Shown in pieces: positions 45,929-56,342 of a stretch of 64,000 bases of DNA. The position numbers and the translations under genes were made by a program. The notes below the pieces were generated by a model. That model was not told the origin of the DNA. It saw only the letters and a program-made list of their open reading frames with translations, and ran no database searches. Positions within the stretch are counted from its first letter, which is position 1. Each line of letters opens with the position of its first letter. Source of the stretch: Pseudomonadota bacterium (GTDB taxonomy: Bacteria; Bdellovibrionota; Bacteriovoracia; Bacteriovoracales; Bacteriovoracaceae); contig JAIYDL010000007.1 in the NCBI GenBank assembly GCA_027487515.1, positions 124,001 to 188,000 on the forward strand, given 5' to 3'.

Positions 45929-46729
45929 TTAGAGGACAACTTTTTCCAGCCGACCGATGGGCTCAGGATCCATGAGCTGAGTCGCCAGGCGCTCGAAGTG
46001 ATCCGTGAGGTCCGTGATACAGACCCGAATCTGTCGGGTATTCCCGAGAGAAGAGGCAGGAACCGTACCGTTCTGAAAGAGCTCCCTCAACTCGGCCGCC
46101 AGCACTTCCCCGCTTTCTACCAGCCGGACCTCGGGACCTAAAACCTTCCGCAGGTCTCCGCGAAGCACCGGGTAGTGGGTGCACCCGAGGATGACTGTTT
46201 TGATGTTCTCTTGCTTAATCTTTTGAAGATAGCGAAGGGCCACGAGTTCCGTAATGAGATCCCCAACCACTCCTTCCTCGACCAAGGGAACAAAGAGCGG
46301 ACAGGCCGTTTCAATGACCTCGACCAAAGGGTCAAGGCCCTTCAAGGTCGTCGCGTAGGCGCCGGAGCGCACAGTGGCCGAGGTCCCGAGGACGGCGATT
46401 CTTTTATCCCTTCCTGCGGCCGCGAGGGCCGCTCGGGAACCCGGAACAATAACGTTCAACAGTGGGATCCCGTCGAAGTCTTCCTCTCCCAGAAACACCG
46501 TCGACGCCGAGTTACAAGCGATGATCAGCGCTTTCACATCCTGGGCCTTGAGGAATTTCAGAATCTGAAGGCCGTACTTCCGGATGGTCTCCGGCGACTT
46601 GTTGCCGTACGGAAGGCGGGCAATGTCGCCCAGGTAGCAGAACGATTCTTGAGGAAACTTTTCGGCCAGAACCTTCAGAACCGTCAGACCACCGAGACCC
46701 GAGTCAAAGATACCAATGGAGCCACTCAT
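45929..46729 (-). CDS. murI: Glutamate racemase
   Basis: Converts L- to D-glutamate for peptidoglycan. Signature blocks are GIFDSGLGGLTVLK (catalytic Asp region), GDIARLPYGNKS, IACNSAST (first catalytic Cys) and LGCTHYP (second Cys). The 266 residues are normal. Its start overlaps the stop of the epimerase-type gene by ATGA, so it is the third gene of that unit. Confidence 0.95.
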   Translation of the reverse strand: MSGSIGIFDSGLGGLTVLKVLAEKFPQESFCYLGDIARLPYGNKSPETIRKYGLQILKFLKAQDVKALIIACNSASTVFLGEEDFDGIPLLNVIVPGSRAALAAAGRDKRIAVLGTSATVRSGAYATTLKGLDPLVEVIETACPLFVPLVEEGVVGDLITELVALRYLQKIKQENIKTVILGCTHYPVLRGDLRKVLGPEVRLVESGEVLAAELRELFQNGTVPASSLGNTRQIRVCITDLTDHFERLATQLMDPEPIGRLEKVVL

Positions 46730-47763
46730 GGTGACTTCCTCGAGAGAATATCCTTCAAGCGCGTGACGCGCTCGAGGTTCTTAAGGACCTGGGGTGCCAG
46801 GAGCCCAGACTGCGTCAGCACTTTGTCAGACAATAGGTGCTTTAAGAAGTCCTTCTCCCAGATCGGAGCGTAGTGCGTCGTGGAGCCTGCACGGGCAAGG
46901 TCCATCGCGGTCCTCACCGTCATCGGCTCAATGCTAGGAAAAGTTTTTCGTGCCAAGCCATTCGTCACCACCGTCGGGTGCTCGAGGCTCTCAGTGAGTT
47001 TTCGCCCAATCTGGGCGTGCTCCGGGATAGCGTAGTCGAGCGCGCGCGTGAGGACTTTCACTTCCACATCCGGGAGCTTGAGCTTCATCCGACGAAGGCC
47101 CGCTAACTCAGCGTAGAGGTCGAGGAGTTCGCCGTACGTGACGGCCTCGGGTCCTCCGATCTCGAAGACTTTATGGCCGGGAGCATGGAGCTTCAGCGCC
47201 TCGTCAAGGTAGCGGAGTAGGTCTCCCAGGCCCAGAGGCTGGCAGGGTTGAGACAGGAGCGTCATGTCTGGTCGCACTGGAAAGCGCTCCGAGATCGCCT
47301 TGATCATCTCGAACGAAAGGGATCCTTCCCCAAGAATAATGCTGGCCCGAAACTCGATGACGGAGAGTCCACTTGACCCGAGGATCGCTCCCGTGAGGTG
47401 GCGACTCCGCAGGTGAGGAGAGAGGTCCAATGATTCAGGGCCAAGACCCCCGAGGTAGATCACCCCGGCCCCACTCGGTCTGATCCAGTTGACGAAGTTC
47501 ACCGCCGCAAGAGACTCGTGGTACTCAAAGAGGCCCTCTTCCGCTTTCAGTCCGTGGACCAAGTAGTACGCTCGGTCGATGGCGCCCAGGGAAGGCAACG
47601 AGTCCGGTTGGAGAAGGTCCCCTTGGACCCAGGTCACTCCGTTCGGTTGCTTTTCTTTGCGCTCCGTCCGGACGAGGCCCGTGACGTGATGGCCCTGCTC
47701 TACTAACTGCTGGATAAGGGCTTGCCCAACGAAGCCATTTGCTCCGGTGACCAGGATCTTCAT
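46726..47763 (-). CDS. NAD(P)-binding protein, atypical SDR/NmrA-like (copy 2)
   Basis: A 345-residue Rossmann protein beginning KILVTGANGFVGQALI (TGxxGxxG). A YYLVHGL region replaces the usual SDR YxxxK centre, and FEIGGPEAVTYGELLDLY is shared with the neighbouring paralogue. It resembles the YbjT/NmrA-type complex-I-like oxidoreductase group; substrate unknown. ATG 47763 overlaps the upstream paralogue's stop, and the 3' end overlaps murI. Confidence 0.8.
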   Translation of the reverse strand: MKILVTGANGFVGQALIQQLVEQGHHVTGLVRTERKEKQPNGVTWVQGDLLQPDSLPSLGAIDRAYYLVHGLKAEEGLFEYHESLAAVNFVNWIRPSGAGVIYLGGLGPESLDLSPHLRSRHLTGAILGSSGLSVIEFRASIILGEGSLSFEMIKAISERFPVRPDMTLLSQPCQPLGLGDLLRYLDEALKLHAPGHKVFEIGGPEAVTYGELLDLYAELAGLRRMKLKLPDVEVKVLTRALDYAIPEHAQIGRKLTESLEHPTVVTNGLARKTFPSIEPMTVRTAMDLARAGSTTHYAPIWEKDFLKHLLSDKVLTQSGLLAPQVLKNLERVTRLKDILSRKSP

Positions 47764-49139
47764 ACTCTTCCCTTTGGTTGCGAAATTACGTGCCACTTCA
47801 GGTGTTCCCCGAAGGCCTTCATAACAATCAGATGAACGAGCGCCTGACTCCAGCGGTAAATGAACCACGGAAGTGCTGGACGAAACTCATGGAGTGCTGC
47901 CATGACGTAGCGACGATTAAGCACCTCACGAAACTCGAGTCGCCCGCGGTCCATGGTCCCAGAGAGGAGGCCCCCGACCACATAAAGAAGCTGCCGGTCC
48001 GGCGTGCTCCGCTCGACGCTCTTCTCGAGGACCAGGATCGCTACGGAGGGATGGAGGAGGTAGAACACACAGCGATTCCCCAGGATCCGAACACTGACCA
48101 GTGTGGAGAAGAAAAAAGGCAGCCAGTGGAAATACTCCTGCGCGACCCACTCCGCGTTCCGCCCCTCTGGCAAGACCAGACGCTGGATCGATCGGACGTC
48201 ATTCGCTGAAGGCCGGTAGGCCCGGTACGAGGACTGCGATTTCTCCAGAAGACCGGTCTCGAGCATCTCGTCCAGGCCCGTTTGGAGGTCTTCCGGATGG
48301 GGCCAGGTATGGTTCTTCGTCGGGAGCATCTCGTGGCGCAGGCTCAGCACCAGGGGGTAGACCAGATCCCGCGGCACACCGGTGATGAGCGAGACCCAGA
48401 AGCGCGAGATCCCGAGCGGGATGACGTTCAGAGTGAGGAGAGTTGTCGTCTTGCGGATCTTGCTCGCAGCTCTCGCGATGAGGCCCTGGTAGGTCACGAC
48501 TTCGGGCCCGGCGATGTCATAAATCTGTCCCTGGATCGCCACGTCCTGGTGACTTCGCTCGAGGGCATTGATGACATCACTGAGCGCCACAGGCTGGGAG
48601 CGGGTGCTCGTCCAGGCCGGACAAATCATGATCGGCAAGCGTTCAATCAACCGCTGAAGGATAGTAAACGAAGAACCGTTGGGTCCGATGATGAGTCCCG
48701 CTCGGAGTACGGTGGTGCGAATCGGAGACTGCCGGAACGTCTCCTCGACCTCAAGGCGACTCCGGAGGTGCCAGGAGAGTTCGACGTTCGGAGGGATCAT
48801 GCCTCCGAGGTAAATAATGTGCTCGAGACCATTGGCGTGGCCCGCGCGGATGAAGTTATCTGCCATGATGAGGTCGAAGTCATAGAACGTGCCCTGCGAG
48901 AGCGACGCCGATGGAAGCATCGAGTGAACCAAGTAGAAGCCCTCTACGCAGCCCTCCATCGCTTCGGAGATGTCTTTGAGGGAAAAGAGGTCGCACTTCT
49001 TCCACGCAAGCCGCGGGTGGTGAGACTCGCGCGCGCCACGAGAGAGTGCTACGATCTGGAGCTCCGGATCGTTCAGGAGACGGTCGATGAGGGCCCGACC
49101 AATGAAGCCACTGGCGCCAGCGATGAGGATTTTTCTCAT
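47760..49139 (-). CDS. NAD(P)-binding protein with DUF2867-like C-terminus (copy 1)
   Basis: A 459-residue protein. The N-terminal half starts KILIAGASGFIGRALID and shares YLVHSML and IYDIAGPEVVTYQGLI with the next gene, showing tandem paralogy. The C-terminal extension (about 310-459: SYRAYRPSANDVRSIQRL, WYR-type GGLLSGTMDRGRLEFREV) matches the DUF2867 region of YbjT-type proteins, often with a hydrophobic end. It heads the three-gene unit with the shorter paralogue and murI. Confidence 0.82.
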   Translation of the reverse strand: MRKILIAGASGFIGRALIDRLLNDPELQIVALSRGARESHHPRLAWKKCDLFSLKDISEAMEGCVEGFYLVHSMLPSASLSQGTFYDFDLIMADNFIRAGHANGLEHIIYLGGMIPPNVELSWHLRSRLEVEETFRQSPIRTTVLRAGLIIGPNGSSFTILQRLIERLPIMICPAWTSTRSQPVALSDVINALERSHQDVAIQGQIYDIAGPEVVTYQGLIARAASKIRKTTTLLTLNVIPLGISRFWVSLITGVPRDLVYPLVLSLRHEMLPTKNHTWPHPEDLQTGLDEMLETGLLEKSQSSYRAYRPSANDVRSIQRLVLPEGRNAEWVAQEYFHWLPFFFSTLVSVRILGNRCVFYLLHPSVAILVLEKSVERSTPDRQLLYVVGGLLSGTMDRGRLEFREVLNRRYVMAALHEFRPALPWFIYRWSQALVHLIVMKAFGEHLKWHVISQPKGRV

Positions 49140-49223: not shown

Positions 49224-49994
49224 ATGATCCTGCTGAGAATTCTACCCGGGGTCTTAAAGGAGTTGGCAAAGCACGTCCCGACGGTCCTCTTCCAGACCGT
49301 TGAGTGGAGCGAGCTCGCCGCTGAAATCCCTAAGCTCTCCCGCCGCCTTGTGCAAAATGAAGGTTACGATGAGCTTTACCACGCGCAGCTCGAGCTCCTC
49401 GCTCCGCAGGGTATTCATCTCACAAATCAGCCGCTCACTTCGTCTCAGTTCATGACCCCGAAGAGCTGTGGGGAGCAACTGCTGACACTCTATTTTGTCC
49501 AGCTTTTTTCTACCACTGGTCTCTTCCTCGACCTCCGGCCTCAGCACTTCAACGAAGAGAAAAGTGGTCTCACCTGGCATCCCACGGGCCTCTGGACCCA
49601 GCTTGATGAAGGATTTCGTCAGGGCCTACTTAAGGTGTACGAGGGGTTCTACCTCGAAAACGATGAGCGCTACTACGAGGGCCTCGAGGGAATCGGACTG
49701 CTTAAGCCGAACTTTGACAGAGAGGAGAAGCAACAGCTCGGAGACCTCTTCCGTGCTCAGTTCGGGAGTGCTCTCGACCAGGACATGAAATTCGATCTCG
49801 AGCACCTGAAGGACTCGATCGTCGGACTTTCGAACTTCATGCTGCTTAAAAAATTGACCATCTCAAAAGACTTTCTCTACCTCGGCATTTACCTCGTGAC
49901 CCTTTACGCGAGTCTGGAGCACCTCGGGGAGAGCTACCCCGTGAAGAAAATCTACCTCGGAGTCCGAGACCGCTTCACTTCTGCGAGAGCTTAA
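49224..49994 (+). CDS. Hypothetical protein
   Basis: A 256-residue, largely helical protein that I cannot place. Notable stretches are the hydrophobic N-terminus MILLRILPGVLKELAKHV, LLTLYFVQLFSTTGLFLDLR, and FYLENDERYYEGLEGIGLLKP. No catalytic motif is evident. Its 3' end overlaps the convergent HAD gene by 20 bp. Codon use and length support a real gene. Confidence 0.6.
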   Translation: MILLRILPGVLKELAKHVPTVLFQTVEWSELAAEIPKLSRRLVQNEGYDELYHAQLELLAPQGIHLTNQPLTSSQFMTPKSCGEQLLTLYFVQLFSTTGLFLDLRPQHFNEEKSGLTWHPTGLWTQLDEGFRQGLLKVYEGFYLENDERYYEGLEGIGLLKPNFDREEKQQLGDLFRAQFGSALDQDMKFDLEHLKDSIVGLSNFMLLKKLTISKDFLYLGIYLVTLYASLEHLGESYPVKKIYLGVRDRFTSARA

Positions 49995-50637: not shown

Positions 50638-51210
50638 CTAGTCGAGAACAGCATACCCGTAGACTTCGCCTGCTCCTAGGAAAAAACCACGATGCCGCGT
50701 CCAGAAAAAGCTCGGCCGTAGCGGACAGCGAGCGCGGGCGCCGAGTAAGAGTTGATGCGTAAGGCCTCTTCCCCGTGCCTGGGGCGCCACTGCGAGGTTA
50801 AAGAGAAAGGTCGCTCCTGGCGCCTCACCAACGAGGAGAGAGGCGACGATCTCCCCCTCCTCCTCAAGCCAAAGGTGCCAGTGCGGAAGTTGGTGGGTCA
50901 TGAGAAACGGAAGCAGCCGGCGAAGAAAGGGGATGGCCTCGGGATTCGCGTATTCATGAAAACCCCAGAACGCCTCCCGTTTGAACGCGAGCGGAAGCTC
51001 CTCCTGCTGAAGCTCCGAGCTTCTTTGAGTGCCCAAGGGGGAGAAGTAGCAGAGCCATCGACCGGCGGATTCTGCCGAAGGCCCACCGAGGATCAGGTTC
51101 CTCGTCCCAAAGCGCGGCGACATGAGAGGCTCCGGAAATCCCGGAAGCTCGAAGTTGCATCCATCTTGAGTCCAGGCCCCGAACATCTCTTGCCAGTACT
51201 TTTGAATCAC
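50638..51210 (-). CDS. GNAT-fold N-acetyltransferase in isocyanide operon
   Basis: A 190-residue protein with a C-terminal GNAT core: LWLEEEGEIVASLLVGEAPG then FLFNLAVAPQARGRGLTHQLL (acetyl-CoA loop R-x-x-G-x-G). The first 90 residues are not part of a minimal GNAT fold and include two Trp-rich segments. Its ATG overlaps the P450 stop, so it is coupled to the isocyanide genes. A tailoring acetylation of the product is the natural inference. Confidence 0.82.
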   Translation of the reverse strand: MIQKYWQEMFGAWTQDGCNFELPGFPEPLMSPRFGTRNLILGGPSAESAGRWLCYFSPLGTQRSSELQQEELPLAFKREAFWGFHEYANPEAIPFLRRLLPFLMTHQLPHWHLWLEEEGEIVASLLVGEAPGATFLFNLAVAPQARGRGLTHQLLLGARARCPLRPSFFWTRHRGFFLGAGEVYGYAVLD

Positions 51211-52466
51211 ACGAGCTCCAATTGCAGTTGGGAGAAGCCTGAAAATGAGAGGGAGTAATGATCCCGGATCGCCTTCGACTTCTCCCCCACCCTAAACTCC
51301 GGGAGCTCCCGCAGAAGCTCCTCAAAGAGCGACTGCATCTCCATCCGCGCAAGCCTCGCTCCGATGCAATAGTGTGCACCGTGCCCGTAGGCGAAGTGCG
51401 GCGTCTTGCGCCGGATCTCAACCGCCTCCGGGCGCTCCGCCTCTGGGAGATCACGGTTCACCGCATGAGAGGAGATGAACACCACTTCGCCAGGGAGAAT
51501 CTCCTGACCTCCGATCACCGCTCTCTCTCGCGCGACCCGAAAGATAAACGTCACCGCGGGATCGAAGCGTTTAAACTCTTCCAGCATCCCAGGAATGAGC
51601 TTCGGGTCCTGCCGAACTTCACCCTGGATCTGGGGATCCGAGGCCAGGAGGAACATGCAGTTGTTCATCTGATCCGTCGTGGTCGCCATGCCGGCGACGA
51701 GCATCATGATAAGCTGAGAGACAACTTCTTCGTCGGTGAGCCCCGTCACCGCCTGCATCCGGAGCATCAGGGACACGTAATCATCGGCGGGTTCTCGGCG
51801 GCGCTTGGCAACGAGTTCGGTGAAGTAAACTTTCAGTGACCGAGCGGCAGCATTGACTTCGATTCCGTCTTCGTTTCGGTACTGGGAGGCCCCTCCGAAG
51901 AAGCCGGTCATGACATTTGACCAGTGTAGGAAGTCTGCTCGGTCTCCCGCAGGAATTGAAAACAAGTCGGCCAGGACCGTCGCCGGCAACTTCTTCGATA
52001 TCATCTCCACAAAATCGAAAGACGCAAGGCCCTTCACATCGGCCACCAGCGCGTGGATCGCCTCATGCATGACCGACCGAAAGCGCTCAAGCACATGCTC
52101 CTCGAACCCCGCAGCGGCAGCTCGCCGCCGACGGGCATGGTCCTCGTCGTCGCTCATGACCATCATCTTCTTTACGACCCCGAAGAAGTCCTGCACCAGC
52201 GAGAGGTCGAGGTTGGGCATGCGAGACACGAAGAACGAGCCCCGGTCCGCCGAAAAGGCCTGGGACGTGAGAACCTCCCGGGCCTGGGCCGCCCGGGTGA
52301 TGACGTGGAAGTTTCCTTTTTCCCAGAAGTAAATTTCACCGAAGCTTCTCACGTAATCGGCAAACCGCTGAGGAAACTCATCCGTGCTCGATGCCCGTTT
52401 GAAATCGTGAAACCCAGCGCCGCTCGTCGTGGTCCGCCGAGACTGCTCTGTTAACTCTGTGGTCAT
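51207..52466 (-). CDS. Cytochrome P450 in isocyanide operon
   Basis: A 419-residue soluble bacterial P450. The haem-binding motif FAYGHGAHYCIGARLAR carries the axial Cys367. The K-helix ExxR is EEFKR, and the I-helix AGMATTTDQ keeps the Thr of oxygen activation. The N-terminus has no membrane anchor, so it needs ferredoxin/flavodoxin partners from elsewhere. It lies 8 bp after the oxygenase gene. It probably oxidises the isocyanide intermediate or its amino-acid precursor. Confidence 0.93.
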   Translation of the reverse strand: MTTELTEQSRRTTTSGAGFHDFKRASSTDEFPQRFADYVRSFGEIYFWEKGNFHVITRAAQAREVLTSQAFSADRGSFFVSRMPNLDLSLVQDFFGVVKKMMVMSDDEDHARRRRAAAAGFEEHVLERFRSVMHEAIHALVADVKGLASFDFVEMISKKLPATVLADLFSIPAGDRADFLHWSNVMTGFFGGASQYRNEDGIEVNAAARSLKVYFTELVAKRRREPADDYVSLMLRMQAVTGLTDEEVVSQLIMMLVAGMATTTDQMNNCMFLLASDPQIQGEVRQDPKLIPGMLEEFKRFDPAVTFIFRVARERAVIGGQEILPGEVVFISSHAVNRDLPEAERPEAVEIRRKTPHFAYGHGAHYCIGARLARMEMQSLFEELLRELPEFRVGEKSKAIRDHYSLSFSGFSQLQLELV

Positions 52467-52474
52467 ACTCGCTC

Positions 52475-53143
52475 CTAAAAGATTTGAATGCGTTTAAAGC
52501 TTCTTCGCCGGTTACTGCCGAGGGACCGCCGTCCGTGGAGGTACCTAAAATTATCGACGACCAGGAGATCTCCTTGCTCCCAGCGGTGCTCTGTCATGAA
52601 CTCAGGACGGTAGAGCATCCTCACCAGAGACTGGAAGAACTCCTCACAACCCGGAACTCCCGAAACCGTAAGTTCGACGGGGTTCAGGGCCGTCTCGACC
52701 CGCTCCGCGATCCGAAGGATGGGCCTCTTGGTCTCCGGGTGTGACTGCAAGAGGGGGACAGTGATCTCGCCTCCATAGTGGGCGAGTTTTTTCGTGCGGT
52801 ACGTGAGCTGGACGCTTCGGCAGCGAACTCGGTCTTCTTCGGAAAGAGATTCCCAGATCTTCTCCGTGTCCGCGAAGAGCGTCTCGCCCCCACTCCCCTC
52901 GCTTTCGAGACAATAAAAAAGTAGGTAGCGCGGCTCCCGGTAGAAAGCTCCATCCCAGTGAAACGGGACCGCCTCATCGGAGAAGAGATAGTTCGTCGCC
53001 GCCGGATCAAACTTCATGGTCATCACCGCCCCAAAGTCCCAGTGCAGGAGCTGCTCACGGATGTCACCGGTGACCGTACTAAGGCCCCGTGCATGAGCGA
53101 TCAGTTCGTCGTCGGTGAATGTCTTAGACTTCAAAATACGCAT
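52475..53143 (-). CDS. Fe(II)/2-oxoglutarate oxygenase, IsnB/PvcB-like
   Basis: A 222-residue TauD-type dioxygenase. The iron ligands are H62 and D64 (PFHWDG) and distal H203 (RYLHGRR), with Arg for 2-oxoglutarate in RRRSFKR. The SDEAVPFHWDGAF and GGETLFADTE blocks are like PvcB/IsnB, which decarboxylate and desaturate the isocyanide-amino acid to a vinyl isocyanide. It is shorter at the N-terminus than typical PvcB. Its start lies inside the isnA stop region (20-bp overlap), so the two are coupled. Confidence 0.87.
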   Translation of the reverse strand: MRILKSKTFTDDELIAHARGLSTVTGDIREQLLHWDFGAVMTMKFDPAATNYLFSDEAVPFHWDGAFYREPRYLLFYCLESEGSGGETLFADTEKIWESLSEEDRVRCRSVQLTYRTKKLAHYGGEITVPLLQSHPETKRPILRIAERVETALNPVELTVSGVPGCEEFFQSLVRMLYRPEFMTEHRWEQGDLLVVDNFRYLHGRRSLGSNRRRSFKRIQIF

Positions 53144-54017
53144 AGCGCTCCTTCTCGAACTTTAGGATCGCGTTAAGCGCCAGGGCCTCGCTTCTATGCA
53201 TCAGTTCGAACCGGTCTCGGATCTTCACGACGACGTTGTGCCAGGGTGTGGCCCACTTCGATGAGCTTGCCACGAGCTTGATTCCAAACTTCTCATGCTC
53301 CGGATCGTGAGGATGAATCGACAGCCGGAGGGCGCCTCTGAAGTGGGTCGCGAGGAGTTCCGACCAGGCCTCAGAGCGCCGCAGGAGCTCGTAGGCATTT
53401 TCTTTGGATTGTTTTTGCACTTGTGTGCGGGAGAGACCCGGGAACAACGTCTTGGTGTCCTCGGAGAGAAACCGATGGAGTCCGTTGAACAGGGAGCGGT
53501 ACCCCGGATCGGAGACGATCCGAGCTTTCACTTCCGAGAGCTCCTTACCGTGAGTGACCAAGAGAATCTCCCGCAGCTCCTCGGGAGTCTTTCCCGGGTA
53601 GAGCTCATCCATGGTGAAGACACTTAAAGCGCCGAGGTCGAACTCCTGGATGATCTGCTTCACTCCCTCGTTGTACCGATCGATGACCGGATCGGCGACG
53701 TTCACGACGTCGCTGAAGGCCCGCCCATCGGAGCAGATCAAGAGCCTAGCACCAGGAGGATAGACCGCTCCGATCCGCTCGCACAGGTTCTGGAGGTTTT
53801 TCAGCGCCAAGACCTCACCGAAGTCCGGTAACGATCCAATAGTCTTCTCCCCACTCGGACTCTTCGCCGGGAAGGCCGGGAGGATGAAAAGGAGTTCTTC
53901 TCTCAGCGCGATCTTCTCTTCGATGCGCCTCAAGAGAGGCACTTGATTAGACTGGAAGGATTCTTTTTGTAGACTGTACTCCCGGAGAATTTCTCCGATC
54001 ACTTCAACGGCACCCAT
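53124..54017 (-). CDS. Isocyanide synthase, IsnA/PvcA/Dit1 family
   Basis: A 298-residue enzyme expected to build an isonitrile on the amine of an amino acid (tyrosine or tryptophan in known cases) using ribulose-5-phosphate carbon. Family blocks are LPAFPAKSP at 46-54, PDFGEVLAL at 64-72, SDGRAFSDVV at 96-105, SIHPH at 233-237 and WATPWH at 255-260. ATG 54017 is chosen for its AAAGGGGG site; longer in-frame starts up to 54125 run into the divergent regulator. It is the first gene of the operon with oxygenase, P450 and GNAT genes. Confidence 0.9.
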   Translation of the reverse strand: MGAVEVIGEILREYSLQKESFQSNQVPLLRRIEEKIALREELLFILPAFPAKSPSGEKTIGSLPDFGEVLALKNLQNLCERIGAVYPPGARLLICSDGRAFSDVVNVADPVIDRYNEGVKQIIQEFDLGALSVFTMDELYPGKTPEELREILLVTHGKELSEVKARIVSDPGYRSLFNGLHRFLSEDTKTLFPGLSRTQVQKQSKENAYELLRRSEAWSELLATHFRGALRLSIHPHDPEHEKFGIKLVASSSKWATPWHNVVVKIRDRFELMHRSEALALNAILKFEKERYAYFEV

Positions 54018-54053
54018 GACGCCCCCTTTTGCTACGGTAGGTATAGGCCTCAT

Positions 54054-54082
54054 TTGAATATTTATGAATTCAATGCTATAAA
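54054..54082 (+). promoter_or_regulatory. Promoter and palindrome between isnA and lysR
   Basis: TTGAAT (54054-54059), 17 bp, then TATAAA (54077-54082) forms a good sigma70 promoter for the LysR-type gene. The same -35 hexamer is half of TTGAAT-N8-ATTCAA (54054-54073), a palindrome suited to a LysR-type operator. The whole 90-bp intergenic region is much richer in A+T than its surroundings. Confidence 0.6.
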
Positions 54083-54108
54083 TAACCACAATAGGTAAAA
54101 ACAAATAC

Positions 54109-54930
54109 ATGAAAATAACCTTCAAAGACCTTCAGAACTTCGTGACCTGTTCGGAATCAAAGACCCTCTCCGAGGCGGCGGAGAAACTCGACATGGCCCA
54201 GCCCTCTCTCTCCCTTGGGATTAAGAAGCTCGAGGGCGAAGTCGGGCATGCCCTTTTCCTCCGAAGCAAAGAAGGACTACGGCTCACGCCTCACGGGAAA
54301 CGTCTTCTTCCGGAGGCCCGGGAAGCGCTCCGGAGCTTAGATCGCCTTCGGGGCGGGGCCAACACCCTTAAATTTCGCATCGGCTGCCATCCCTCCGTTG
54401 GCATGTTCGTCCTCGGGTCATTCCTCCGCCTCATGCACCGAACCCACCCGGAAATAGACTTCGAGATCGTGAACGGCTCTTCCCACGAGATCAATAAGCT
54501 CGTCGCCCAAGGAAGCGTAGATTTCGGCGTCGTCATGAACCCCGCGTCTTTCCAAGGTCTCATCATCAAGGCCATCGGAGAAGATGACGTCTATGCCTGG
54601 GAGTCGAAGGCACGGTATCAAAACAAGCTCATCTACAATCCCAACATGCTCCAGGCCCTCTCGATCATCTCCCGCTGGAAAGGGGCCCCGGTGCAAACCG
54701 TCGAAGTTCAGAACCTCGAGCTCCTCGCCCACCTCACGGACTCCGGAGCGGGCGTGGGCATCCTCCCGTCGCAGGTCGTGAGGGCCCAGCGCCTCCAACT
54801 GCAGCGAGTGCCCGGAACCCCATCATTCAAGGATCACCTCACCCTTGTCTGCTACCCGGAAATGATCAAATCAGTGGAAGGGAAGACCATCTTCGAAGCT
54901 CTGAAAAAAGTCTTCCATCACTCGTCCTAA
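54109..54930 (+). CDS. LysR-family regulator divergent from isocyanide operon
   Basis: A 273-residue LysR-type regulator. The N-terminal winged helix is clear: DLQNFVTCSESKTLSEAAEKL, AQPSLSLGIKKLEGEVG, LFLRSKEGLRLTPHG. The effector domain begins FRIGCHPSVGMF and contains GVGILPSQV near the end. It is slightly shorter than the usual 290-310. Its position head-to-head with isnA makes it the likely activator. The effector is unknown. Expression from the TTGAAT/TATAAA promoter and autoregulation through the palindrome are inferred. Confidence 0.92.
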   Translation: MKITFKDLQNFVTCSESKTLSEAAEKLDMAQPSLSLGIKKLEGEVGHALFLRSKEGLRLTPHGKRLLPEAREALRSLDRLRGGANTLKFRIGCHPSVGMFVLGSFLRLMHRTHPEIDFEIVNGSSHEINKLVAQGSVDFGVVMNPASFQGLIIKAIGEDDVYAWESKARYQNKLIYNPNMLQALSIISRWKGAPVQTVEVQNLELLAHLTDSGAGVGILPSQVVRAQRLQLQRVPGTPSFKDHLTLVCYPEMIKSVEGKTIFEALKKVFHHSS

Positions 54931-54932
54931 GC

Positions 54933-55715
54933 CTAGAACTTCGCGACCAAAGCCGTCGTAAAAAGAGTGTCGGTCTTAAACAAAATTCCCGGGGCCGGTA
55001 CCTGATCGTGACGAAGTAAGACCCCCGTTTTGAGCGAGAAGATCTTACTCAGAACGGCCGAGAGAGAGAACTCGGTGTTAAACTGCCAGTCCCGGTTCTC
55101 GGAAATGTTCGGGAGATACTCCGCCCAGTACTTCGTTGAGAAGTTCGGATTCCACTTTCGCTCCCACTCGACGAAGACTCGCCCGTAGCTACTGAGCACG
55201 AAGGAGTCGTCGATCCGATCCTCGTCCATGTACCGGTAACCGAGCTCAGAAAAAAAATCCGTCACACTCGATTCGATGTACCGATACCTCCCGCCGAAAT
55301 CCGTGATGAACCTGTTATCAATCCCGGCGAACTTATCTTTCTCCCAGGTCTCTCCGGTGAAGAGACCAAAGTGCGTCGAGAGGTGCCGCTCGTAGCGAAG
55401 GGAACTCATGACGTAGCGAGCGGTTTCCGCGCCGTTTGCCTTGGCGTTCAGATACCGGGAATTAAAACTCACGACGTTCAGGTCCCACTTGTACTCGTTA
55501 CTTTGCTTAATGTTGTAGGTCTGGACTTTGCTGTTCCCATTGGCCGAGGCGATGCCCGCTTCTGAGTCGTTGGTGAGTTGCGCCTGTGCAGGTGAGAAGA
55601 AGAACATCAGCCCTAGAACAAAGAGTGCTTTGAGCAGATTCCTAAATTCCGCCTCCCGGTGATCGAGAAGGGACAACGATTTTCTCAAGTTATGGGGTTC
55701 CCGAATTTCAATCAT
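54933..55715 (-). CDS. DUF481/YdiY-like outer-membrane beta-barrel protein
   Basis: A 260-residue exported protein. A hydrophobic segment ending SPAQA (residues 28-45) is a signal peptide after an unusually long polar N-terminus; AGGAGG before ATG 55715 supports that start, though a later start is possible. The mature part is an alternating-strand barrel (SLRYERHLSTHFGLFTGET, FGGRYRYIES, FSELGYRYMDE) ending in a C-terminal Phe, as in the salt-induced YdiY family. It lies 12 bp after the PaiB-like gene. Confidence 0.8.
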   Translation of the reverse strand: MIEIREPHNLRKSLSLLDHREAEFRNLLKALFVLGLMFFFSPAQAQLTNDSEAGIASANGNSKVQTYNIKQSNEYKWDLNVVSFNSRYLNAKANGAETARYVMSSLRYERHLSTHFGLFTGETWEKDKFAGIDNRFITDFGGRYRYIESSVTDFFSELGYRYMDEDRIDDSFVLSSYGRVFVEWERKWNPNFSTKYWAEYLPNISENRDWQFNTEFSLSAVLSKIFSLKTGVLLRHDQVPAPGILFKTDTLFTTALVAKF

Positions 55716-55727
55716 CCTCGTCCTCCT

Positions 55728-56342
55728 CTAGCGCGAGTCCTTGAAGGGATCAGTCAGTTTCATGTAGCGCAGAAGCTTCTCATTCCCAGGAACTGAACTC
55801 AGGGCCTTAACAAGGAGGTCGTAGTCTTCTCGTTTCCGGTTCTGACTAAGTTTGAATTTTCCCTCGAGCTTCGTCACCCGGATCCGGATCCAGACGATGG
55901 CGGCGAGGAGTTGACGGTGGAACTCCTCCGGGAGCTCATACTTCCAACCCGTCCCTGAGAGGGCCTCCTGGTGCCGCACGAGTTCACTCATTCGATCCTG
56001 TGCCAGGCCGGAATCTGTCACGACGGAAACTTCACCCAGCGCGTGAACAGCGGTGTAATTCCAGGTCGGAACATTGAGCGGATTGGCATAGTGGGCCGGG
56101 GAGATGTAAGCGTTCGGTCCTGTGAAAACGGCTAGACATGTTTCACCCGCAAGGCTCTTCCATTGAGAGTTACTCCTCGCCAGATGAGTCCACAGGTCTA
56201 GGTCTCCTTCGCTCTCTGTGAGAAGGAAGGGGTAATGGTTCGCGGCAAGGGCCGGACCCACGAGTGTGCCAAAATTATTCTCGCGGATGAACTCGATCAG
56301 AGTCTGGCGCTCGGGAACAGAAGCATAAGGAGGAATGTACAT
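55728..56342 (-). CDS. PaiB-like FMN-binding split-barrel protein
   Basis: A 204-residue protein of the PaiB family. The start MYIPPYASVPERQTLIEFI and core NNFGTLV, ANHYPFLL, HLARSNSQW and VFTGPNAYISPAHYA are diagnostic, and NVPTWNYTAVHALG completes the FMN-binding fold. PaiB was described as a negative regulator of sporulation and protease genes in Bacillus; here the role is unknown. It is upstream of the DUF481 gene in one unit. Confidence 0.88.
   Translation of the reverse strand: MYIPPYASVPERQTLIEFIRENNFGTLVGPALAANHYPFLLTESEGDLDLWTHLARSNSQWKSLAGETCLAVFTGPNAYISPAHYANPLNVPTWNYTAVHALGEVSVVTDSGLAQDRMSELVRHQEALSGTGWKYELPEEFHRQLLAAIVWIRIRVTKLEGKFKLSQNRKREDYDLLVKALSSVPGNEKLLRYMKLTDPFKDSR

Follow-up and report, generated by a model that had tools for sequence, protein, structure and literature searches.

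The locus analysed here raises the question of which kind of isonitrile (isocyanide) a Bdellovibrio-like bacterium might assemble, and whether its enzymes follow either of the product rules described for this family. It lies in a 64,000-nucleotide window of contig JAIYDL010000007.1 (positions 124,001 to 188,000), which belongs to a draft genome of 3.4 Mb in 27 contigs whose only PF05141 match is found here. Five minus-strand genes, encoding an isonitrile synthase (IsnA), an iron- and 2-oxoglutarate-dependent (Fe/2OG) oxygenase (IsnB), a cytochrome P450 (P450), a GNAT-like protein and a HAD-type protein, and a divergent gene for a LysR-type regulator were found at the positions named in an initial interpretation of the nucleotides (the sequence-only reading). 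Family searches returned matches above cut-off throughout, namely DIT1_PvcA, TauD, p450, Acetyltransf_1 and HAD_2 on the minus strand as well as HTH_1 and LysR_substrate on the plus strand, the latter two confirming the divergent regulator gene. IsnA scored 234.6 bits against a curated PF05141 cut-off of 26.4, the PF02668 profile check on IsnB gave the TauD match listed in Table 1, and the GNAT gene reached 25.0 bits against 20.7. The motifs LPAFPAKSP, SDGRAFSDVV and WATPWH in IsnA, the HWDG and distal His of a PvcB-type oxygenase, and Cys367 of the P450, within FAYGHGAHYCIG, were all present as first read. Measured spacings bore out the overlapping to near-abutting gene order: IsnA and IsnB overlap by 20 nt, 8 nt separate IsnB from the P450 gene, the latter overlaps the GNAT gene by 4 nt, and the HAD gene follows 15 nt further. 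Compared with the near relative L081 (isolate H1_MAG_00023), which served as reference for all ratios of nonsynonymous to synonymous divergence (dN/dS), protein identity over the IsnA, IsnB, P450, GNAT, HAD and LysR genes was 65-92% and dN/dS 0.028-0.159, rough values since synonymous divergence (dS) is saturated. Family matches, catalytic residues, conserved synteny and low dN/dS thus back the initial interpretation, and the cluster is very probably an isonitrile biosynthesis operon under the divergent LysR-type regulator.

Table 1 Features of the locus in window coordinates, with the matches that identify them
Feature	Positions	Strand	Evidence
IsnA, isonitrile (isocyanide) synthase	53124..54125	minus	PF05141 1.9e-69; PvcA 3e59 1.6e-55
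IsnB, Fe/2OG oxygenase, PvcB/PIsnB family, N-terminally short	52475..53143	minus	PF02668 5.1e-31; 7tcl 1.2e-33; PvcB 3eat 8.2e-29
Cytochrome P450, haem Cys367, ExxR E297/R300, Ala261	51207..52466	minus	PF00067 9.7e-22
GNAT-like acyltransferase	50638..51210	minus	PF00583 25.0 bits
LysR-type regulator, divergent	54109..54930	plus	PF00126 + PF03466
Divergent promoter region, 91 nt	54018..54108		alignment of 8 intergenic regions

Prevalence was assessed across 26 genomes of the genus, 129 of the family and 368 of the phylum, the six relatives known by name being metagenome-assembled genomes. PF05141 matches occurred in 8, 16 and 43 of these, respectively, and gene surroundings were read for 41 of the 42 other PF05141 genomes, a 30-bit fragment (G188) being left out. 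Wherever the context was readable, two kinds of cluster were found, isnA-isnB-P450 (17 genomes) and isnA-isnB-flavin hydroxylase (25 genomes). A flavin hydroxylase, represented by a PF01494 match in L041, follows isnB in 25 of the 41 genomes examined, while the contig of G276 ends first; these commoner flavin-type loci are L041, L048, L051, L054, L055, L059-L061 and L064-L080. The P450 is present in the other 15 of the 41 and in the window, in most cases directly after isnB; in G101 and G027 it stands on a separate contig that starts at or inside isnB. G049 has no PF05141 match, and the IsnB end that adjoins its P450 at a contig edge makes it the 17th P450-type genome. No flavin hydroxylase was found in the stretches examined for the 17 P450-type genomes, and no P450 at E<=1e-30, the threshold used across the 368 phylum genomes, in any of the 25 flavin-type genomes. 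At this threshold 18 phylum genomes carry the P450, 16 of them with a PF05141 match, G049 with the IsnB end and G237 with neither.

The third-step oxidase is matched by differences in IsnB. The closest solved relatives of the window protein (dN/dS 0.086) are PvcB (3eat) and 7tcl, which we take to be PIsnB. This identification was made because the residues of 7tcl fit the numbering of PMC9467999, which, like the other papers cited here, was available in part. With the first start codon after a stop taken as the beginning, and with fragments and the 582-aa open reading frame (ORF) of G367 omitted, complete IsnB ORFs span 222-267 aa when P450-linked versus 268-309 aa when flavin-linked. The window IsnB has 222 aa and lacks about 40-50 N-terminal residues of 7tcl and PvcB; since the same length recurs in G088, G081, G087 and G024, it is no sequencing slip. 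The His-x-Asp...His iron site and the carboxylate-anchoring Arg that mark PvcB/PIsnB desaturases are kept (H62, D64, H203, R218), as is R214. For Arg261 of PIsnB, a functional role is assumed here. Those of His101, Asp103, His250 and Arg265 are taken from PMC9467999, and the positions below are given in PIsnB numbering.

In the window, the pocket reads Ala66-Phe67-Tyr68, Thr117 and Ala146. All 16 P450-linked genomes with a usable IsnB have Ala-Phe at positions 105-106 and Thr at 159, with Tyr, His or Leu at 107, although 107 and 159 border gaps (159 is gapped in the flavin rows and PvcB) and the alignment is less certain there. At position 188, Gly occurs once (G027) and Ala in the remaining 15; in G275, Phe replaces Trp102. 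The residue table leaves out G367, for its ORF length, and G276, where the contig ends and no IsnB match rises above the score limit. The 24 flavin-linked rows invariably carry Met at 105 and Arg at 107, with Asn (19), Cys (4) or Ser (1) at 188, and show the signature Met-Tyr(Phe)-Arg. As the P450-linked rows form one clade, the Ala-Phe signature likely reflects a single evolutionary event rather than 16.

According to the available text of PMC9467999, vinyl isonitrile formation of the PIsnB type goes with Lys or Arg at 107 and Asn or His at 188, and isocyanoacrylate formation of the PvcB type with Leu and Cys at these positions. With Tyr and Ala, the window protein fits neither the PIsnB nor the PvcB pattern; the same holds for the P450-linked IsnB proteins as a group, and 5 of the 24 flavin-linked rows likewise fit neither rule cleanly. 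The rule is a correlation, and single mutants of one orthologue left the product unchanged (PMC9467999). The natural Ala-Phe-Tyr is of note because changing Met-Tyr-Lys of PIsnB to Ala-Phe-Ala abolished stabilisation by substrate (PMC9467999). Since the carboxylate anchor is kept and the aromatic pocket is unlike both characterised classes, the substrate or the outcome of this IsnB likely differs from theirs. As a tentative proposal, to which we give appreciably less than even weight, the P450-linked clusters would form a third IsnA/IsnB class, in which an enlarged IsnB pocket (Ala-Phe-Tyr/His/Leu, Thr, Ala) with another substrate or outcome is combined with a P450 specific to the pathway and a divergent acyltransferase of GNAT-like type to give an undescribed acylated isonitrile from Bdellovibrio-like bacteria. 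Two alternative third-step oxidases, each matched by its own IsnB pocket, offer a direct test of the selectivity determinants of IsnB, a question that the available part of PMC9467999 leaves open after the single mutants.

The synthase tree follows the same division. In 47 IsnA rows, leaving out G238, a fragment of 200 aa, and G049, which has no IsnA, the 15 P450-linked rows are split from all others by a single branch (100/98; recovered in 100% of 200 bootstrap trees), and PvcA is placed among the flavin-type rows, a label that G276 also carried although its contig ends before the third gene. The row adjoining the P450-linked group (99/94) comes from the Hymenobacter plasmid NZ_CP007144.1. 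IsnA has a dN/dS of 0.035 (with dS saturated), and its true start is probably an internal ATG at 54017, giving 297 aa, since the ORF of 333 aa runs into the LysR gene and several relatives start nearby. IsnA could instead be a Dit1-like enzyme that forms an N-formyl amino acid for oxidation by the P450, much as Dit1 and the P450 Dit2 act in dityrosine formation in yeast (PMC10153163), the Dit1 product being stated as formyl tyrosine in the available text of PMC7345447. We consider this highly improbable, as in P450-type loci IsnA is followed by an IsnB that retains its Fe/2OG residues, and the closest solved structure to IsnA is PvcA. Beyond the phylum, the comparison covered plasmid records, 14 of which match IsnA, none from Legionella; eight of these were retrieved and seven re-scanned, of which four carry a P450 and no IsnB match, and three an IsnB match and no P450. 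A search of viral contigs with the IsnA alignment gave 45 pattern matches, none of them a relative.

The P450 (dN/dS 0.067) has 455 distinct solved sequences among its matches, with a top score of 151.6 bits, and contains FxxGxxxCxG and ExxR besides PF00067. A motif alignment recovered the haem Cys and ExxR in all 17 cluster P450s, in which the I helix reads AGx(A/V/I)TT (Ala 7, Val 9, Ile 1) and lacks an acid. An acid is usual at this position, which is Ala261 in the window P450, and its absence is odd for a plain hydroxylase. This would suit a P450 that couples two isonitrile units into a xanthocillin- or dityrosine-like dimer instead of releasing a hydroxylated monomer, as would the cyclodipeptide-synthase-associated P450 model that ranks second among the NCBIfam matches, and the xan cluster of Aspergillus fumigatus combines the same three activities, with P450 XanG possibly acting in dimerisation (PMC5974471, available part). 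The NCBIfam matches, however, all fall far under cut-off, and the missing acid marks a wider P450 family, because the outgroups, G237 and Nostoc, share this absence; a GNAT or glycosyltransferase gene beside the P450 fits a newly formed hydroxyl equally well. We regard dimer formation as rather unlikely. Streptomyces and Embleya P450s, tried as close relatives, were ruled out by the P450 tree, and the Nostoc linckia P450 has no annotated isn gene within 6 kb. The distant P450 of G237 (28% identity; region L122:2027-7091), in a genome without an IsnA or IsnB match, is flanked, as judged by eye, by an MFS-like gene and by possible genes for a cupin and a glycosyltransferase.

The acetyltransferase was part of the combination for which the sequence-only reading knew no parallel; its place beside the P450 stands, yet it is no one-off, since 8 of the 17 P450 genomes have a homologue immediately behind the P450 (window, G088, G104, G054, G058, G238, G049 and G027). 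The protein passes the Pfam cut-off and carries QARGRG at residues 144-149. R/QxxGxG is the acetyl-CoA motif of GNAT proteins, and it is eroded in the homologues of L052, L053 and L057. Profile comparison related three GNAT-like subgroups to each other (pairwise E-values of 2.4e-13, 4.6e-7 and 8.3e-6 over 187, 62 and 108 columns, respectively), while structure prediction was too poor to use (pLDDT 37.2). In some of the genomes without the gene, another stands in its place: a glycosyltransferase gene in G139 (family scan), a similar one in G153 (by eye) and an amine oxidase-type flavoprotein gene in G275. Beyond the LysR gene, G004 has a glycosyltransferase gene and G101 a similar-looking one. 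The GNAT-like gene could be a passenger on a core of isnA-isnB-P450, given that 9 of the 17 P450 genomes have no homologue next to the P450, that, among the six genes set against L081, it changes fastest (65% identity, dN/dS 0.159), and that its presence needs 4 changes on the P450 tree, at least 2 of them required by starred branches. It nevertheless stays with the P450 even where the latter has left isnAB, as in G104, a single-contig genome whose P450-GNAT pair (L118:6752-8571) lies by itself, some 590 kb away from isnAB, so that the pair moves or split off as a unit. Moreover, a model built from the eight members themselves matches 27 of the 368 genomes at E<=0.001, the best beyond these eight reaching 39 bits versus at least 220. 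A passenger status is in our view doubtful.

The reactions, product, export and role outlined in the following are predictions from gene content. IsnA-family enzymes convert the amino group of an amino acid into an isonitrile with ribulose-5-phosphate. The window IsnA would do so with an aromatic substrate, either Tyr or Trp, IsnB would carry out an Fe/2OG oxidation of the isonitrile acid, and the P450 would supply the third oxidation, either a hydroxylation or a coupling reaction. Acylation of the P450 product by the GNAT-like protein might follow in this lineage. As a class, isonitriles are ligands of copper, iron and haem, with activities as metallophores, enzyme inhibitors and antibiotics, and the exported product would probably likewise bind copper, iron or haem; a role in predation is conceivable. 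We think it unlikely that the complete order of steps holds as proposed. Several observations count against this interpretation of the operon. The short IsnB was predicted poorly (pLDDT 51.5 from 6 rows), which leaves the completeness of its fold unproven. Use of Tyr is not established, since IsnA scored 196.4 on NCBIfam NF045653 (L-tyrosine isonitrile synthase) against an equivalog cut-off of 600. GNAT scores are weak, and four of six other homologues scanned had no Pfam match at E<=0.1. In P450-type loci of more distant genera, no strong LysR relative was seen beside isnA (131-134 bits in G139 and G027, and no relative above 33 bits in the stretches examined for G054, G058, G275 and G153). 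The separation in G104 means that P450-GNAT and isnAB need not share one molecule.

Comparison with known systems showed that the joint occurrence of a synthase and both tailoring oxygenases, for which the sequence-only reading knew no precedent, has counterparts in Legionella isnAB with a P450 (PMC5126622) and in XanB with XanG of xan (PMC5974471). In the available text of PMC5126622, a helix-turn-helix protein and a P450 always accompany isnAB in Legionella; by this description, the cluster resembles the present one in synthase, Fe/2OG oxygenase, P450 and regulator gene, but no GNAT is mentioned there. PvcA and PvcB homologues in Legionella are also mentioned in PMC4256840. The xan cluster of A. 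fumigatus shares the isonitrile synthase (ICS), dioxygenase and P450, although XanB is an ICS-dioxygenase fusion and XanG is described as a Dit2 homologue (PMC5974471). Paerucumarin pvcABCD of Pseudomonas aeruginosa has the homologous PvcA (3e59) and PvcB (3eat), the latter differing at both selectivity positions (Leu and Cys, against Tyr and Ala in the window IsnB). To our knowledge, pvcABCD contains no P450. The rhabduscin cluster shares the homologous isnA-isnB pair and has a glycosyltransferase gene where the P450 stands here; PIsnB reads Met-Tyr-Lys plus Asn, the window IsnB Ala-Phe-Tyr plus Ala. The Hymenobacter plasmid NZ_CP007144.1, whose IsnA is next outside the P450-linked group, encodes a TauD protein reading HWDGAF and FAEP; there and in NZ_CP040937.1, unlike here, an FAD-dependent oxidoreductase is encoded and no P450 is annotated within 6 kb. 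The isnA-isnB-P450 kind of cluster is thus already known, and the present one belongs, judged by sequence, to a separate branch of the family in which the second enzyme is unusual. Judged by titles and the openings of abstracts, the literature found on isonitriles and Bdellovibrio does not deal with such a product in these bacteria, nor does that on Bdellovibrio-like bacteria deal with such clusters.

LysR relatives of 370-562 bits adjoin isnA in seven other P450-type loci, and within the genus this applies to 6 of 6 (389-562 bits). With IsnA probably starting at 54017, 91 nt remain before the LysR gene. ACCTAT is kept in 7 of the 8 aligned intergenic regions, and the 20-nt palindrome TTGAAT-N8-ATTCAA at 54054-54073 is a candidate operator only; as a shared LysR palindrome it was rejected, since just 2 of the 8 regions have it, those of the window and of L081. 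The HAD gene, first counted as part of the cluster, proved to be a mere neighbour, since 23 of the 26 genus genomes carry it, 15 of these without a PF05141 match; in G081, G087, G090, G101 and G104 it lies on another contig than isnA or more than 600 kb off. Convergent with it, a 256-aa ORF (49224-49994, plus) gave no Pfam or NCBIfam match, and no relative was seen in L043. Further out, two overlapping ORFs (46726-49139, minus) start, by eye, like NAD(P)-binding Rossmann (SDR-type) proteins, the one at 47760-49139 having weak NCBIfam matches only. Behind the LysR gene, a DUF481 gene and an FMN_bind_2 gene follow on the minus strand (54933-56342), in the same order as in L043.

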